Source: Spirochaetales bacterium (lineage in GTDB: Bacteria; Spirochaetota; Spirochaetia; Treponematales; Treponemataceae). Taken from it: DNA of 64,000 bases. The stretch is from positions 682,001-746,000 of the forward strand of contig QKEL01000009.1 in the NCBI GenBank assembly GCA_003252395.1, given 5' to 3'. Numbering within the stretch: position 1 is the first letter of the stretch; each line of letters begins with the position of its first letter. The notes under the pieces were generated by a model. The model saw only the letters and a program-made list of their open reading frames with translations. It ran no database searches and was not told the DNA's origin. Positions 57,636-64,000 of this stretch are shown piece after piece. Position numbers and translations under genes: made by a program.

Positions 57636-57713
57636 ACTTCCATCCTTCTTCCTACAGTATCGGTACCGCGCATAAACATATGAGCGTTTTCCTATTTTCA
57701 AGGAGACTCAATT

Positions 57714-57734
57714 GTGATAGTGTTCGATTCATGA
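57714..57734 (+). CDS. Six-codon leader micro-ORF upstream of the NusG-like gene
   Basis: GTG ATA GTG TTC GAT TCA TGA, reading MIVFDS. AAGGAG (57700-57705) is eight bases from the GTG, the ideal distance, whereas it is 25 bases from the ATG of the following gene. The stop overlaps that ATG as ATGA. The NusG-like gene has no ribosome-binding site of its own, so translational coupling through this micro-ORF is the simplest reading. The alternative is a poorly placed ribosome-binding site. Confidence 0.55.
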   Translation: MIVFDS

Positions 57735-58252
57735 ACTATTACGCCCTCCAGGTAAAAACCCGGGCCGAGGATGTATACATTAAACGGGCTATCCTCTCGC
57801 TTGACCCGGAAGTCAGGGAGAAAATAAGGTTCATCTTTCCGCGCCGCAAACTGACGATCAGGCAAAAGGGCGAAAACAAAACCCAAGTCGAACCGGTATT
57901 TCCGGGCTACCTTTTCATGGAAGCCGAACGGCTCGAGAACGCCGTATATTGGAGTTTGCGTACCACGCCGGGCTTTTTCCGCTTTCTGCCCGATAACAAG
58001 GAACCGAAACCGCTCGAGGGAAGGGACCTTGCCATGCTGAGCCACTTCATGTCTTTCGGAGATGTTGCCGATAAATCCAAGGTACGGTTCGACGAAAACG
58101 ACCGTATACAGATTTTAGAAGGCCCCTTGAAGGGGCTGGAAGGATACATCGTGAAGGTAGATCGACGCAAAGGGCGAGCGCGGGTAATGCTGGACATGTA
58201 CAAGGACCATTTCGCGATTGATTTCGCGTTCGAAACCCTCGGTATGCAGTAA
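57731..58252 (+). CDS. Specialised NusG paralogue (LoaP/RfaH-like antiterminator)
   Basis: 173 residues. The NGN domain starts MNYYALQVKTRAEDVYIKRA and contains VEPVFPGYLFMEAERLENAV with FFRFLPDNKEPKPL; the C-terminal KOW domain is IQILEGPLKGLEGYIVKVDR and KGRARVML. The PLFPGYLF-type block and the position in front of sugar genes fit LoaP/RfaH-type proteins, which stay on RNA polymerase and suppress termination in long operons. A housekeeping NusG would normally be next to secE and rplK. LoaP assignment is by eye. Confidence 0.78.
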   Translation: MNYYALQVKTRAEDVYIKRAILSLDPEVREKIRFIFPRRKLTIRQKGENKTQVEPVFPGYLFMEAERLENAVYWSLRTTPGFFRFLPDNKEPKPLEGRDLAMLSHFMSFGDVADKSKVRFDENDRIQILEGPLKGLEGYIVKVDRRKGRARVMLDMYKDHFAIDFAFETLGMQ

Positions 58253-58253
58253 T

Positions 58254-59735
58254 ATGGCCAAAGACCATTCCAGCGCGAATATTTATATCATCGGCGCGGG
58301 GTTGGCGGGCACCATGCTCGCCAGGGAAATCCGCGAAAAGGGAATTTTCGGGACGGTCGTCGCCTTCCTCGACGACGATACGCGCAAGATCGGCAGGGAG
58401 ATCGACGGCATTCCGATTTTGGGCCCCGTGGCCCAGGCCGCAAAACTGATCAGGATCGGATCCAAGGACGAGGCGCTCATCGCGATTCCCAGCGCCTCGC
58501 CGGAGACCCTGAGAACGCTCTATACGGCCCTGCAAACCGCGGGCTTTACCCGCATACGGCTGCTTCCGAACATCGCCCAAATCGTCGAGGGAACGGCGCA
58601 CCTCATTCAGGCCCGCGAAATAGACCCCCAGGACCTTTTGGGCCGCGCGCCCGTCGCCATCAACCTGAAAAAGAGCCTTTCCTACCTTCGGGGCAAACGG
58701 GTACTCATTACCGGCGCCGGAGGTTCGATCGGGAGCGAGCTGGCCCGGCAACTCCTTTCGGGCGGGGCCGAACGCATCTACCTGTTCGGGCACGGCGAGA
58801 ATTCAATCTACCAGATAGACCGCGAACTGCGCCTGCTGCAGGAAGCGGGGGTCGGGGAAAAGGCGACCGTCGTACCGGTAATCGGCGAACTGAAAGACCG
58901 GGAGTACATGCGGTACATTATCCGCCAGCTTAGGTGCGACGTGGTATTCCACGCGGCCGCCTACAAGCACGTGCCGCTGATGGAAGCGAACCCGGTGGCG
59001 GTAATTGAAAACAACGTGTTCGGGACGGCGAACCTTTTGGAAGCCTGCCTCGAGTCGGGAGTAAAGCGCTTCGTGCTCATATCCACCGACAAGGCCGTGG
59101 ATCCCGTTTCGACCTACGGCGCCTCGAAGCGCATCAGCGAGCTATTGGTGCGGGAATACGCCGAAAAGGCCGCGGGAAGCGGGGCGGCGTACATGTTCGT
59201 CAGGTTCGGGAACGTGCTCGGCTCGCGAGGCTCCATTCTTCCCCTATTCGTGGACCAAGTCAGGAAGGGCGGACCGGTTACCGTGACCGATCCCGATATG
59301 GTACGCTATTTCATGACGATACCCGAGGCCTGTTCCCTGGTCCTCAAGGCCGGCGGCGTCGGGACCAACGGGGAAACCTATCTCCTTGACATGGGGGAAC
59401 CGGTAAGGATTCTGGACGTGGCGGAACAGCTCGTGCGTTTCATGGGCTACGAGCCCCACCAGGATATTCCCATTACGTTCATCGGCCGGCGTCCGGGCGA
59501 ACGATTGGACGAGCCGCTGTGGTCACGAACCGAGCGTCCGGTCCCCACGGAATTCACGAAGATACTCCGGCTCGAGGACAGGGGCGAAACCGCCCCGCCT
59601 GACCTGGGGGAATTGCTCCGCTCCCTGGAGCCGATATGCTTCAGGAGGGAGGGCGCGGACGCGAGCTTCCGCAACCGAGAGCTGCTCCAGGCCGTTCTCG
59701 CCGCCTCCCTACCCTCTTTCGGGAATAAGGAATAA
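58254..59735 (+). CDS. Nucleotide-sugar 4,6-dehydratase, CapD-like, without membrane domain
   Basis: 493 residues. An N-terminal nucleotide-binding fold (YIIGAGLAGTMLAREI) is followed at about residue 140 by the SDR catalytic domain with VLITGAGGSIGSELARQLL, HAAAYKHVPLME, STDKAVDPVSTYGASKR and the active YxxxK region substituted as SKR-type. PglF/WbpM relatives carry four membrane segments first; these are absent. It would convert a UDP-GlcNAc-type sugar to a 4-keto-6-deoxy form. Starts one base after the NusG-like stop. Confidence 0.88.
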   Translation: MAKDHSSANIYIIGAGLAGTMLAREIREKGIFGTVVAFLDDDTRKIGREIDGIPILGPVAQAAKLIRIGSKDEALIAIPSASPETLRTLYTALQTAGFTRIRLLPNIAQIVEGTAHLIQAREIDPQDLLGRAPVAINLKKSLSYLRGKRVLITGAGGSIGSELARQLLSGGAERIYLFGHGENSIYQIDRELRLLQEAGVGEKATVVPVIGELKDREYMRYIIRQLRCDVVFHAAAYKHVPLMEANPVAVIENNVFGTANLLEACLESGVKRFVLISTDKAVDPVSTYGASKRISELLVREYAEKAAGSGAAYMFVRFGNVLGSRGSILPLFVDQVRKGGPVTVTDPDMVRYFMTIPEACSLVLKAGGVGTNGETYLLDMGEPVRILDVAEQLVRFMGYEPHQDIPITFIGRRPGERLDEPLWSRTERPVPTEFTKILRLEDRGETAPPDLGELLRSLEPICFRREGADASFRNRELLQAVLAASLPSFGNKE

Positions 59736-59740
59736 ACGCG

Positions 59741-60916
59741 ATGCCGCAGGAACAAACGCACATACCTTTTTTCAGGCCCTCGTTCTCCGAAGACGAGGAG
59801 CGCGCCGTCGTCGAGGTTCTCCGGTCCGGTTGGCTTACCACGGGTAAGGTAACCCTGGCCTTTGAGGAAGAGTTCGCCCGCCTTACCGGCGCGCGGCGGG
59901 CCCTGGCGGTCAATAGCGCCACGTCGGGGCTCATGCTGGCCATGGAGGCCCTCGGCGTGCGAAGCGGGAAGAAAATACTGACTACCCCGTATACCTTCGC
60001 GTCCACCGCCATGAGCGCGCGGCATCTCGGCGCGGAAGTGGCCTACGCCGACGTGGAAAGGGATTCCTACTCGATAGACCCGCAACGGGTCGAGGACGCC
60101 CTGAAAAAGGACCGGGATATCGCCGCGATCGTTCCGGTGCATATTGCCGGAAACCTTTGCGACATGGACGCGATAACGGGGCTCGCCCGGCGGTACGGCG
60201 CGGCGGTGATCGAGGACGCGGCGCACGCCTTTCCCTCGAAGACCGAGGCAGGATACGCCGGAACCCTCGCCGACGCGGGCGTATTCTCCTTTTACGCCAC
60301 CAAGACCATCACTACCGGCGAGGGCGGAATGGTGTGCGCGCGCGACCCAAAGGTCGCCGACCGCATAGCCCTCATGCGCTCCCACGGCATTAACCGAACG
60401 GTTTGGGACCGCTATACCTCGGCCTCCGCCTCCTGGAAATACGACGTGGTGGAGGAAGGCTGGAAATGCAACCTCCCCGACGTGCTTTCCGCGATCGGGC
60501 GCGTGCAGCTCGCGAAGGCCTGGGACTTTTACCGGTCCCGCTCCGCCGTCGCCCAGGCCTATACCGAAGCTTTCTCCCGCGCCGAGGGGCTTATCGTCCC
60601 TCCCGACGGTCCGGGAAACGCCTGGCATCTGTATTTACTCCGATTGGACCTGGACGCCCTTGACTGCGACAGGGATACCTTTGCCGCGGAACTGCAGGGC
60701 GCGGGGCTCGGCATATCCATGCATTTCATTCCCCATTTCGAGCTCACCTATTTTCGGGAGCGCTACGGATTGCGGGCCGGCGACTTTCCGAACGCGGACG
60801 CGAAATACCGCTCCACGGTCACGCTTCCCTTTTGGCCCGGCATGAGCGGGGAGCAAGTCGAGCGGGTGATCGCCATCACGCTGGAAACGGCAAAAAGGCA
60901 TACGGGAAGACGATGA
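59741..60916 (+). CDS. DegT/DnrJ/EryC1-family PLP sugar aminotransferase
   Basis: 391 residues, aspartate-aminotransferase fold. The PLP lysine is in FSFYATKTITTGEGGM (about residue 188), and VIEDAAHAFPS holds the aspartate that contacts the pyridine nitrogen. It should aminate the 4-keto sugar made by the preceding dehydratase. AAGGA nine bases before the ATG supports the start. Its stop overlaps the next gene (ATGA). Confidence 0.9.
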   Translation: MPQEQTHIPFFRPSFSEDEERAVVEVLRSGWLTTGKVTLAFEEEFARLTGARRALAVNSATSGLMLAMEALGVRSGKKILTTPYTFASTAMSARHLGAEVAYADVERDSYSIDPQRVEDALKKDRDIAAIVPVHIAGNLCDMDAITGLARRYGAAVIEDAAHAFPSKTEAGYAGTLADAGVFSFYATKTITTGEGGMVCARDPKVADRIALMRSHGINRTVWDRYTSASASWKYDVVEEGWKCNLPDVLSAIGRVQLAKAWDFYRSRSAVAQAYTEAFSRAEGLIVPPDGPGNAWHLYLLRLDLDALDCDRDTFAAELQGAGLGISMHFIPHFELTYFRERYGLRAGDFPNADAKYRSTVTLPFWPGMSGEQVERVIAITLETAKRHTGRR

Positions 60917-63024
60917 ACGACGCGGGAACCTTTTATTCTGACCTGGAATTTCCCGAGCAATACTACGGCGTCTTGATTCGCTCAACGGTGCAACGCGGCC
61001 GTCTGGTTGACATTCGACCGCCGCAAATGCCGGACGGGTACCATTTGTACACCGCGGTTGACGTGCCCGGGGAAAACCGCGTGAGCGCCATGGGGACCGT
61101 CGTGCCCGTGTTCACCCCCTACGAAATCCTTTATTACGGCGAACCCCTCGGCATTCTGGTCGGCCCGGATTTGCAAACCGTCACGGAACTCGTTTCGGAA
61201 GTGCTTATCGAGACGGAAGCCCTTGAGCCCTGGACCTTCGGCGAGCGGTTTTCCGCCGCGCAGGTCGTCGGGAAACGGGTCATAGAATCCGGCGACCCGG
61301 ATGGCCCGCTTTCCGACGCGGCGCGGGTTCACGAGACCGTTTGCGAGTTGGGGCCCCAAGACCATTACTACACCGAGCCGTTGGGAGCGGCGGTCAATAT
61401 CGCGAACGGGACCCTGGTAATCCACTCGCCTACCCAATGGCCCTTTCACGTGCGCGATTCCGTTTCCGCCCTTTTGGACCTGGACCCGTCGGATATCGTG
61501 GTACGGCAAACGAATCCCGGAGCCCACCTGGACGGCAAGATTTGGTTTCCCTCGCTTATCGCCTGTCAGGCTGCCCTCGCGGCCGTCCTATGCAAGCATC
61601 CCGTGCGGGTATCCTTTTCCCGGCAGGAAGACTTCCTCTTTTCCCCGAAATCGGTCCCCGTGACGGTTCGTTACGTCACCGCCGCCGGCGAGGACGGCTC
61701 CATCGAGGCCCTCTCCGCGAGAATCCTGATCAATGCCGGCGCCTATAGCCCGCTCATCGACGAGGTCATAGACCGGGTTACCCTCGCCGCCCTCGGCTTT
61801 TACCGGGTACAGAATTGGAGAATCGAAACCTGGGGACTGCGCACCAATATGCCCCCCATGGGCGTGCTTTCCGGCTGGGGCGAATCGCTCGCCCTGTTTG
61901 CCCTGGAAAACCACCTCGCCTCGGTAATCCGCCGGGGCAAGCATTCGCCCATCGAGTGGAAACTCCTCCACGTACTGGGCACGAAGGAAGAATCGGCGCG
62001 CAATTTCGGCTTTCCCGTCGCCGCGACCATGACGGAACTCTTTTCCCAGATATGCTCCATGAGCGATTTCCCCCGAAAATATACCGCCTACGAATACCTC
62101 GCCCAATGCCGGACGGACAAACGGGACGGACCGCTTCGGGGCATAGGCATCGTGTGCGGGTATCAGGGAAACGGATTCCTCTCGAAAATCGTGGACCGGG
62201 CGCCCTACTCCATGGAGGTGACCATGGAGACCGACGGGTCCGTGACCGTGAAAACGGGAATGGCCTCACCTTCCATGCGGAACGCCTTCGCCGCGACGGC
62301 GGCGGAAATATTCGGCATAAAGCCCGACCTCGTGCGTTTCGCGGAACGGTCCACGGATACGATGAACCCAACCGGACCGGAAACCCTTTCGGCCGCCGTG
62401 ACCATACTCGCGCCGCTTTTCGAGAAATGCTGCCATACCATTCAGCGGCAACGCTTCCGGACGCCCCTCCCCATCACGGCTAAAAAGGCATGGAAACCAT
62501 CGAAAAACGATTCCTGGTCCTCGAAGGAATTCGCCGGGAATCCCTTCGTGTCCACCACGCCGGGAGCCTGCGCCCTCGAGGTCGAACTGGACCCCGTAAC
62601 CTACGAGACGTCGATACGCGGGGTTTGGATCGCCTGCGACGCCGGCAAACTGTTCTCGAAGAAGCACGCCCGATCAGAGCTGGTCAGGAACGCGCATATA
62701 GCCCTTTCGCGGGTACTGTGCGAGCGGATATCCATCAAGGAAGGGCGCTTTATCCCCTCGGACAGCGTTCAGTACGACATGCTCACGCCCGATCGGATGG
62801 TCGACGTCGATATCGCCTTTTTAGATTCGAAGGCGGAAAGCCGCGGCATCGGCACCCTCGCGCAAAACCTCATACCCGCCGCATACGCGGCCGCCCTCGC
62901 GCAAATCATCAGGCAGCCCGTCGGCCAACTGCCCCTGGGCCCGGCCTATATCCACGAACTGATTGAAACCCGCGATACAAGCGCGGAGAATCCGAAACCG
63001 GAAGCGGGGGGAGACGGACAATGA
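60913..63024 (+). CDS. Xanthine dehydrogenase-like large subunit lacking cofactor motifs
   Basis: 703 residues. The molybdenum-hydroxylase layout is clear: a/b hammerhead (FYSDLEFPEQYYGVLIRST; FTPYEILYYGEPLGILVG), QDHYYTEPLGAAV, SFSRQEDF, LINAGAYSPL, TNMPPMG, and the last helices SRGIGTLAQNLIPAAYAAAL. The cofactor motifs are altered: GGFGGK is GAHLDGK (about residue 200), RGFGxPQ is SGWGESL, the GQG loop reads GMASPSMRNAF, and the catalytic Glu of GxGE is Thr in GIGT. It may not bind molybdopterin. ATG 60913 overlaps the aminotransferase stop. Confidence 0.88.
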   Translation: MNDAGTFYSDLEFPEQYYGVLIRSTVQRGRLVDIRPPQMPDGYHLYTAVDVPGENRVSAMGTVVPVFTPYEILYYGEPLGILVGPDLQTVTELVSEVLIETEALEPWTFGERFSAAQVVGKRVIESGDPDGPLSDAARVHETVCELGPQDHYYTEPLGAAVNIANGTLVIHSPTQWPFHVRDSVSALLDLDPSDIVVRQTNPGAHLDGKIWFPSLIACQAALAAVLCKHPVRVSFSRQEDFLFSPKSVPVTVRYVTAAGEDGSIEALSARILINAGAYSPLIDEVIDRVTLAALGFYRVQNWRIETWGLRTNMPPMGVLSGWGESLALFALENHLASVIRRGKHSPIEWKLLHVLGTKEESARNFGFPVAATMTELFSQICSMSDFPRKYTAYEYLAQCRTDKRDGPLRGIGIVCGYQGNGFLSKIVDRAPYSMEVTMETDGSVTVKTGMASPSMRNAFAATAAEIFGIKPDLVRFAERSTDTMNPTGPETLSAAVTILAPLFEKCCHTIQRQRFRTPLPITAKKAWKPSKNDSWSSKEFAGNPFVSTTPGACALEVELDPVTYETSIRGVWIACDAGKLFSKKHARSELVRNAHIALSRVLCERISIKEGRFIPSDSVQYDMLTPDRMVDVDIAFLDSKAESRGIGTLAQNLIPAAYAAALAQIIRQPVGQLPLGPAYIHELIETRDTSAENPKPEAGGDGQ

Positions 63025-63500
63025 TCGTAAGGTTTAACCTGAACGGCGCCACGGTATTCATAGACGCGAATCCCGGCGAAAGGCTCGTCCATATACTCAG
63101 GCGGCGGTATAACCTGCTCGGTTCGCGGGAAGGCTGCCTTTCCGGGCGTTGCGGGGCCTGTACGGTGCTTTTTAACGGATCGCCCATACCCTCGTGCATC
63201 GTACCCGTTTTTCAGGTACAGGACGGCACGATCGTCACCATCGAGGGCTTTCGCTCCGAGGAAGACTATGCCGATATCGAGCGGGGGTTCCTCGAGGCCG
63301 GAGTAACCACGTGCGGATTTTGCGACGCGGGTAAGATACTGACGGCCCACGCCATACTCCAGGCCTACCCCCGGCCCAGCAAGGACGAGATAAAGGATAT
63401 GTTCGGCGGAAACGTGTGCCGATGCACGAATATCGACGATTTGGTCGCCGGGGTGAAAAACGCCTCGAACATACGGCGGAAGAGATACCATGCCAAATAA
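63021..63500 (+). CDS. 2Fe-2S subunit of the hydroxylase-like complex
   Basis: 159 residues. The plant-type ferredoxin domain has EGCLSGRCGACTVLFNG and SCIVPVFQ; the second cluster has CGFCDAGKILTAHA and GGNVCRCTNIDD. All eight cysteine ligands of the CoxS/XdhC-type small subunit are present, unlike the degenerate large subunit. It should pass electrons between the large subunit and FAD. It overlaps both neighbours by a few bases. Confidence 0.95.
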   Translation: MIVRFNLNGATVFIDANPGERLVHILRRRYNLLGSREGCLSGRCGACTVLFNGSPIPSCIVPVFQVQDGTIVTIEGFRSEEDYADIERGFLEAGVTTCGFCDAGKILTAHAILQAYPRPSKDEIKDMFGGNVCRCTNIDDLVAGVKNASNIRRKRYHAK

Positions 63501-64000
63501 GAACACGACGATTTACCCGGTTTCCAACGTCGCGGAAGTCTTAAGCATCCTGAAAAACGTTCGAGGCGTTTCCATCGTGGCCGGCTGTACCGAATTGGCC
63601 CGCAGGCAAACGGGACGGAACCTCAGGCTGCCACCCCTGGTCCTTCCCCTCTCGCGGGTTCCGGAACTCTGCACGGTCGCCAAAACCGAGCGGTACATCG
63701 ATTTCGGTCCGAGCGTTACCCTTGAGGCCATCCTGCAGTTGGGCGCAAAAAACCTGCCCGAAGCGCTTCACCGGGCGGTGAAAAGCGTGGCGAACCCCGG
63801 GATACGCGCCCTGGGCACGCTGGGAGGCAATATTTCCGCCAAGGGGCATCGGCTGACCGCCTTCGCGCCGCTTTTAGCCCTGGACGCGCGATTGGAAATC
63901 AAGAGTCCCGCGGAAACCCTGTGGATACCCATGAACCGGTATTTCTCCAACACCGGGAAAACCCATCGGGACCCCACCGAGTTTATCTCCAAAATACGCG
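63490..64000 (+). CDS. FAD-binding subunit of the hydroxylase-like complex (partial)
   Basis: The frame opens at ATG 63490, eleven bases inside the preceding gene, and continues past the window end; 170 residues are visible. VSIVAGCTELARRQTG (canonical VAGGTDL has Gly where this has Cys) and NPGIRALGTLGGNISAKGH are the two FAD-pyrophosphate loops of the CoxM/XdhB family. It should carry FAD and exchange electrons with the 2Fe-2S subunit. Confidence 0.88.
   Translation, partial: MPNKNTTIYPVSNVAEVLSILKNVRGVSIVAGCTELARRQTGRNLRLPPLVLPLSRVPELCTVAKTERYIDFGPSVTLEAILQLGAKNLPEALHRAVKSVANPGIRALGTLGGNISAKGHRLTAFAPLLALDARLEIKSPAETLWIPMNRYFSNTGKTHRDPTEFISKIR

Follow-up and report, generated by a model that had tools for sequence, protein, structure and literature searches.

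Why is a redox complex of the xanthine dehydrogenase (XDH) type encoded in one unit with two enzymes of nucleotide-sugar synthesis? The question is raised by the end of a 64,000-nucleotide stretch of DNA from a Spirochaetales bacterium (the window; positions 682001-746000 of contig QKEL01000009.1, host genome 3.4 Mb, 92.9% complete). Reading of the sequence gives six + strand genes: loaP, a dehydratase (CapD), an aminotransferase, and the large subunit (LSU), iron-sulfur subunit (FES) and flavin adenine dinucleotide (FAD) subunit of the complex. By computation we found that this gene order is conserved, that the large subunit has lost its molybdenum cofactor (Moco) site with its fold retained, and that it is under purifying selection. 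We read the locus, with a probability of roughly 0.42, as encoding a molybdenum-free redox complex that serves the product of the dehydratase and the aminotransferase.

57731..58252, + strand: loaP, specialised NusG paralog (processive antiterminator), 173 aa; NF033641 137.6 bits, PF02357
58254..59735, + strand: nucleotide-sugar 4,6-dehydratase, FlaA1/WlaL(PglF)/PseB-like, 493 aa; PF02719 E 4.4e-111
59741..60916, + strand: DegT/DnrJ/EryC1 sugar aminotransferase, PseC/ArnB-like, 391 aa; PF01041 E 3.9e-103, pyridoxal phosphate (PLP) lysine present
60913..63024, + strand: large subunit of the XDH-type complex (D-type, defined below), Moco-binding motifs absent, 703 aa; MoCoBD_1/2
63021..63500, + strand: FES subunit, ligands of two [2Fe-2S] clusters (8/8 Cys), 159 aa; PF01799, PF00111, Fer2_2
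63490..64329 (L003:9490-10329; inside the window to 64000), + strand: FAD subunit, 279 aa; PF00941 (FAD_binding_5) E 2.5e-32

A coupled six-gene operon

In operon order the junctions measure +1, +5, -4, -4 and -11 nt, those between aminotransferase and large subunit and between large subunit and FES being ATGA overlaps. The six genes are a genuine operon and a single coupled unit; junctions of +1 to -11 nt bear out this claim of the sequence-only reading that preceded our analysis. The FAD gene runs beyond the window by 329 nt, to 64329. A convergent queA-like frame lies 11 nt downstream of it, and the operon is therefore complete with six genes.

Loss of the molybdenum cofactor site

The large subunit of the window matches MoCoBD_1 (E 3.9e-42) and MoCoBD_2 (E 3.8e-21) and is without GGxFGxK, RGFG, GQG and the catalytic Glu; at the former Moco site it has PGAHLDGK, LSGWG and a Thr for the catalytic Glu. 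A search of 296 genomes of the phylum with this subunit gave a match at E <= 1e-10 in 132; our analysis took in 106 loci, the window's own among them, from 104 of the matching genomes. The 28 matching genomes left out held mostly weaker or redundant matches, and include G149 (family f9) and G286 (family f7). The sequences were split on GGxFGxK itself: 75, here called D-type, keep at most two of its five fixed residues, and 31 others keep all five. Loss of this motif in the D-type group is thus definitional, and the test lies in monophyly and in the other residues. In a tree of the 104 full sequences with E. coli XdhA and PaoC, from which the two half-sequences of genome G271 were excluded, the 75 D-type sequences grouped as one clade to the exclusion of all others (support 0.897). 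Counting the halves of G271, the clade spans 76 genomes of 13 families, all within the window's class, Spirochaetia. Two residues independent of the split followed it closely: the Arg of RGFG is present in 0/75 D-type sequences vs 31/31 motif-bearing relatives, and the Gln of GQG in 0/75 vs 30/31. Glu stands at the catalytic position in 29/75 D-type and 31/31 motif-bearing sequences. GGxFGxK was likewise absent from a second set of loci (0/80), made up of the 80 best of 95 relatives, all from named genomes and found through the peptide pattern QRFRxPLPI only; 77 of its 80 large subunits are longer than 600 aa. The Moco motifs are lost also in those D-type genomes that possess Moco genes.

This loss of motifs and residues suggests that the complex of the D clade is molybdenum-free. 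A molybdenum-free system had been proposed by the sequence-only reading, and the absence of GGxFGxK, the RGFG Arg and the GQG Gln now supports it at the active site; with the Moco site gone, the word 'hydroxylase' used in that reading is unsupported. We also looked for Moco synthesis genes. No match to MoaA, MoaC, MoaE or MoeA was found in the host genome at its 92.9% completeness, and none of the four in genome G056 (1,139,633 bp), which we take to be T. pallidum; the sequence-only reading had believed this species to be without molybdopterin synthesis. MoaC and MoeA are both absent from 64 of the 76 D-type genomes. In a panel of 80 genomes (56 D-type, 24 others; its tests are not corrected for phylogeny), 44 of the 56 D-type genomes were without MoaA, MoaC and MoeA, and presence of the D-type complex showed no association with Moco genes (Fisher p = 1.0). 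MoaE was found in only 3/80 panel genomes, which cautions against over-reading absences of this kind. MoaC and MoeA are missing also from 9 of 29 genomes with a motif-bearing large subunit, and missing Moco genes alone therefore prove little.

Such complexes are usually annotated as quinoline 2-oxidoreductase or xanthine dehydrogenase; on that view this one would still be a molybdoenzyme, using scavenged or unusual Moco in a diverged site. The XDH fold and family matches agree with this, as do the MoaC and/or MoeA genes of 12/76 D-type genomes, the Glu at the catalytic position in 29 sequences, and the 9 motif-bearing genomes that likewise have neither MoaC nor MoeA. Against it stand at most two of five hammerhead residues and an RGFG Arg and GQG Gln lost from all 75 sequences even where Moco genes exist, and the 64 genomes without MoaC and MoeA. 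We consider a surviving molybdoenzyme very unlikely. If the complex is molybdenum-free, both descriptions would be wrong.

Outside the D clade, ten loci carry large subunits with intact GGAFGGK (L071, L087, L088, L089, L092, L098, L101 and L102 of family f12; L133 and L134 of f32). Nine of these ten genomes are without a MoaC or MoeA match, and G240 (L087) has MoaC. Scavenging of Moco, or diverged synthesis genes, would be a possible explanation.

One study describes 'orphan' xanthine oxidase (XO)-family proteins whose hosts have no complete Moco pathway, and reports no sequence feature that distinguishes them (PMC6147048). The present complexes resemble these orphans in being XO-family proteins of hosts without the pathway, and differ from them in forming a defined clade, marked by loss of GGxFGxK, RGFG and GQG, with a usual operon partner. 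The main text of that paper contains no match for Treponema or Spirochaet. No title on the operon or its Moco loss appeared in the literature searched, a coverage that most subscription papers fall outside.

Retained fold, electron-transfer motifs and selection

The AlphaFold model of the window's large subunit (pLDDT 88, pTM 0.88) found xanthine oxidase/dehydrogenase as its best Foldseek matches (TM 0.85, 20% identity), with TM 0.85 to xanthine oxidase 1fiq and 0.86 to 1jro. The FES subunit has all 8 Cys ligands, and its best solved match is nicotinate dehydrogenase 3hrd_D. Across the D-type genomes (n=74) the Fe-S cysteines are intact in 44, have one ligand displaced by a single position in 23 (all of genus g4), and show losses in 7: the plant-type cluster's entire set of four Cys in G056, seven of eight in G130, three each in G276 and G260, two in G293 and one each in G288 and G291. 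The FAD subunit of the window has the loops VAGCTEL and IRALGTLGGN; the second, as T[hydrophobic]GGN, is kept strictly in 56/75 and loosely in 72/75 D-type genomes. In nine pairs the dN/dS of the large subunit lay at 0.04-0.21, much like that of the aminotransferase (three more pairs were dropped for saturated large-subunit dS), which rules out a decaying relic. Since fold and Fe-S/FAD motifs are mostly kept and dN/dS is low, the complex is not a relic.

The complex thus shares with the XDH/XO family (XDH, 3hrd, quinoline 2-oxidoreductase 1t3q, 4-hydroxybenzoyl-CoA reductase 1rm6) its three-part architecture, two [2Fe-2S] clusters, FAD_binding_5 domain and large-subunit fold at TM 0.85. In contrast to that family, the Moco-binding motifs are absent here and the catalytic Glu is not conserved; in most hosts no Moco synthesis genes were found, and the complex is encoded with nucleotide-sugar genes. 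The D-type group is thus a large clade that has lost the cofactor site itself and mostly kept the electron chain, and its usual metabolic context suggests candidate substrates.

It is conceivable that the large subunit has ceased to be an enzyme and acts as a scaffold or regulator, for instance a platform for sensing redox state or metabolites, with the dehydratase or the aminotransferase bound to it. Its former active-site pocket diverges freely, the subunit as a whole is more diverged (22-45% shared with the window's) than the adjacent CapD (52-69%), and cluster ligands are lost in 7/74 genomes, G056 and G130 among them. However, a pure scaffold would need neither Fe-S ligands, which are kept or shifted in 67/74 genomes, nor the FAD loop, which is loosely kept in 72/75. 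We regard a scaffold as unlikely, at a chance of the order of one in five.

Linkage to the sugar genes

The aminotransferase gene lies directly upstream of the large-subunit gene in 63 of the 76 D-type genomes, from ten families (61 by script; G063 and G271, whose large-subunit frames extend far upstream, by eye). Upstream of the complex there is also CapD in 57 of the 76 genomes and LoaP in 24; FES follows in 74 and the FAD subunit in 75. Among the 29 genomes with a motif-bearing large subunit, none has CapD or aminotransferase beside it. The large subunits of the aligned set share only 22-45% with the window's, and adjacent CapD proteins 52-69% with the window's CapD. Adjacency in 63/76 genomes despite such divergence of the large subunit is more than chance would give, and the gene block is ancient. 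In the second locus set the aminotransferase is upstream in 62 of the 73 loci with more than 1 kb of upstream sequence (61 by script, L153 by eye).

A similar order in T. pallidum had been put forward by the sequence-only reading. Genome G056, presumably this species, does have CapD>aminotransferase>LSU>FES>FAD, with LoaP absent; its one full-score DegT gene is the aminotransferase of the operon, and NeuB and PF01973 (Maf-type) genes are present as well. That reading also gave a redox annotation for TP0079-TP0081, as quinoline 2-oxidoreductase; a published analysis predicts TPASS_0079 and TPASS_0081 as xanthine dehydrogenase (PMC4403809), which agrees with the redox annotation for these two genes under another enzyme name. 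Our reading would provide a functional frame for both.

Some loci depart from the common pattern. In genus g2 (L037, L038 and L042), CapD and the aminotransferase are separated by one or more additional genes, or such genes precede the aminotransferase. By their titles, all loci of the second set are from spirochaetes except one, among the best 80 of 95, on a contig of a termite-gut Fibrimonas metagenome-assembled genome. The exception, L224, encodes a D-type complex; its contig was binned as Candidatus Fibrimonas termitidis, and either contamination of the bin or transfer would account for it. L157 is titled Treponema denticola, yet its large subunit shares just 29% identity with the one of G165, which we take to be T. 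denticola, and the label may be wrong.

The sugar pathway and flagellin

The dehydratase scored 176 bits against the PseB model TIGR03589 (cut-off 407.75), and its best solved match is WlaL. The aminotransferase scored 329.8 bits against the PseC model TIGR03588, its best model (cut-off 423.5). As in PseB/PseC and WlaL/PglF, a dehydratase is paired with an aminotransferase, and PseB and PseC are the best equivalog models; unlike in PseB/PseC, both proteins fall under the equivalog cut-offs, the dehydratase has an extra N-terminal domain, and a redox complex is linked. In L036, L041 and L059 (family f3), the aminotransferase matches the window's well only from residue ~126, which hints at a diverged N-terminal part.

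A DegT-family enzyme next to FAD and [2Fe-2S] proteins recalls the E1/E3 system of 3,6-dideoxysugar synthesis, in which a DegT enzyme works with an FAD/[2Fe-2S] reductase and E1 has a His at the position of the PLP Lys. Complex and aminotransferase might then form a deoxygenation pair dependent on pyridoxamine phosphate (PMP), and parts of like kind are indeed directly adjacent. However, the aminotransferase keeps a PLP Lys that aligns with the Lys of ArnB 1mdo, where E1 has His; with no His replacing this Lys, it is not an E1-type (PMP) DegT dehydratase. Its best models are PseC and ArnB, and the FAD/Fe-S parts here are XDH-type. We rejected E1/E3-type deoxygenation on the retained Lys and hold such a pair to be improbable.

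The sugar of the T. denticola flagellin glycan is reportedly of pseudaminic type and bears a long acyl group at N7. In the 80-genome panel, all 50 genomes with a CapD match had flagellin and Maf, and 49 had strong NeuB. Seven genomes of family f6, presumably Borrelia-like, have flagellin and no NeuB, Maf, CapD, aminotransferase or LSU match. In the three f9 and twelve f12 panel genomes there was no match to flagellin, CapD or aminotransferase. Because CapD tracks flagellin, NeuB and Maf, the most likely role of CapD and the aminotransferase is in supplying a nonulosonate for flagellin. The flagellins (FlaBs) of T. denticola bear a 450.2-Da glycan that is essential for filament assembly and motility, according to one report (PMC9481697), and the operon would contribute candidate enzymes for it. 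A stand-alone gene for a NeuB-type nonulosonate synthase lies close to the operon, ~5 kb beyond the window end (L003:15093-16235).

Proposed role of the complex

As the first two enzymes of a UDP-amino-sugar route, the dehydratase and aminotransferase would convert UDP-GlcNAc to a UDP-4-amino-4,6-dideoxy sugar, and this sugar would feed a nonulosonic acid (through NeuB and Maf) that is then placed on flagellin. The complex may be a redox enzyme of the same pathway, a step of which we are less sure. Judged from motifs, electrons could pass between FAD and a presumed partner, NAD(P)H or a carrier, with the two [2Fe-2S] clusters as relays. A nucleotide sugar, or else the acyl group with which its new amino group is decorated, might be the substrate; it might sit in the remodelled former Moco pocket and would react without a metal-pterin. 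On this scheme an XDH-fold complex lost Moco once, early in Spirochaetia, to become a metal-pterin-free flavo-iron-sulfur enzyme that oxidises or reduces a nucleotide-activated amino sugar, or the acyl group attached to it, and thereby builds what is unusual in the flagellin glycan of treponemes, the syphilis spirochaete included; in this full form the proposal is tentative, and we would give odds against it. That sugar genes and complex have a joint product is likely, and in spirochaetes, among them relatives of the syphilis and gum-disease bacteria, the complex probably helps to make the sugar coat of the flagella.

Several observations weigh against a molybdenum-free complex devoted to the CapD/aminotransferase product. 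The aminotransferase is not adjacent to the complex in 13/76 D-type genomes, including both of f9, all four of f12 and the lone f15 genome, with G260, G268 and G138 near a contig end; in G276, G288 and G295 some or all of the sugar genes are located elsewhere. The sequence-only reading had named regular separation of the hydroxylase genes from the sugar genes as evidence against itself, and such separation is found in part, with 13 genomes apart and 63 adjacent. In six D-type genomes, from f9 and f12, the complex is present with no match to CapD, aminotransferase, Maf or flagellin. G215 and G260 combine flagellin and complex with no CapD or aminotransferase match, and G096 (f7) has both sugar genes and no LSU match; these calls were made at similarity thresholds of 1e-100 and 1e-60, which diverged copies can escape, as the adjacent aminotransferase of G203 does. 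No one motif takes over the Moco site across the clade, and the full electron path is not universal, given the losses in G056 (four Cys) and G130 (seven of eight). Because the complex survives in flagella-less families without sugar genes, the joint product is no more than likely. The suggestion of a flagellar glycan is thus plausible where CapD tracks flagellin, NeuB and Maf, while f9 and f12 make it less likely that the complex serves a flagellar glycan only. The idea of an oxidised amino sugar is not supported.

These same genomes could point to a free-standing flavo-iron-sulfur oxidoreductase of general metabolism, merely co-transcribed with the sugar genes through LoaP. The complex stands apart from the aminotransferase in f9, where two D-type genomes still carry LoaP beside it, in f12 and f15, and in G215, G177 and G295; the CapD of G177, and both CapD and aminotransferase of G295, are elsewhere in the genome. 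Such independence is hard to square with adjacency of aminotransferase and large subunit in 63/76 genomes of ten families. In the panel, 47 genomes have the D-type complex with CapD and 9 have it without, and CapD without the complex is found in only 3/80, of which G018 has a weak CapD match and G286 (f7) a weak LSU match outside the examined loci. We therefore think a free-standing enzyme a minority prospect, comparable in likelihood to the scaffold.

A putative loaP promoter element

LoaP scored 137.6 bits on NF033641, above the cut-off of 125, and the host genome has one further NusG match, on contig 5. Like known LoaP, it is the first gene of a sugar operon; unlike known LoaP, it heads a short six-gene unit with a seemingly near-leaderless promoter, and stands beside the complex in 24/76 genomes only. 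One feature lies at its start:

57710..57734, + strand: putative weak extended -10-like element (TG-A-TAGTGT, 57715-57723) of the loaP promoter; 3/6 bases of TATAAT

A frame from GTG 57714 to TGA 57734 overlaps this element and had been taken as a micro-ORF (open reading frame), the first gene of the operon. The frame exists, but by a permissive test a similar one is found in only 20/70 loaP upstreams. At the same position, relatives have extended -10 sequences, e.g. TGATATAAT (L038), TGATACAAT (L172) and TGTTATTAT (L050, L057). A -10 score of at least 8 was reached by 56/65 distinct loaP upstreams vs 14/46 for the aminotransferase and 21/51 for the large subunit, with the best matches mostly ending 6-12 nt before the loaP ATG. 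The mean best score was 8.38 for loaP vs 7.34 after shuffling, and in the controls 7.04 vs 6.82 (aminotransferase) and 7.43 vs 7.40 (large subunit). A Shine-Dalgarno-like motif showed the opposite trend, in 8/65 loaP upstreams vs 21/46 and 36/51. The two controls are imperfect, being mostly coding sequence, and CapD (n=1) was left unscored. The micro-ORF as a coupled gene was rejected on its rarity and its coincidence with the relatives' extended -10; a better reading of the stretch is as a putative promoter element for a loaP message with almost no leader, though the window's own copy of the element is weak.

Further along the contig, 10-20 kb downstream of the window (L004:1-10000), a seeming second polysaccharide-type cluster lies on the - strand, with dehydratase-like and DegT-like genes as judged by eye from the translations.

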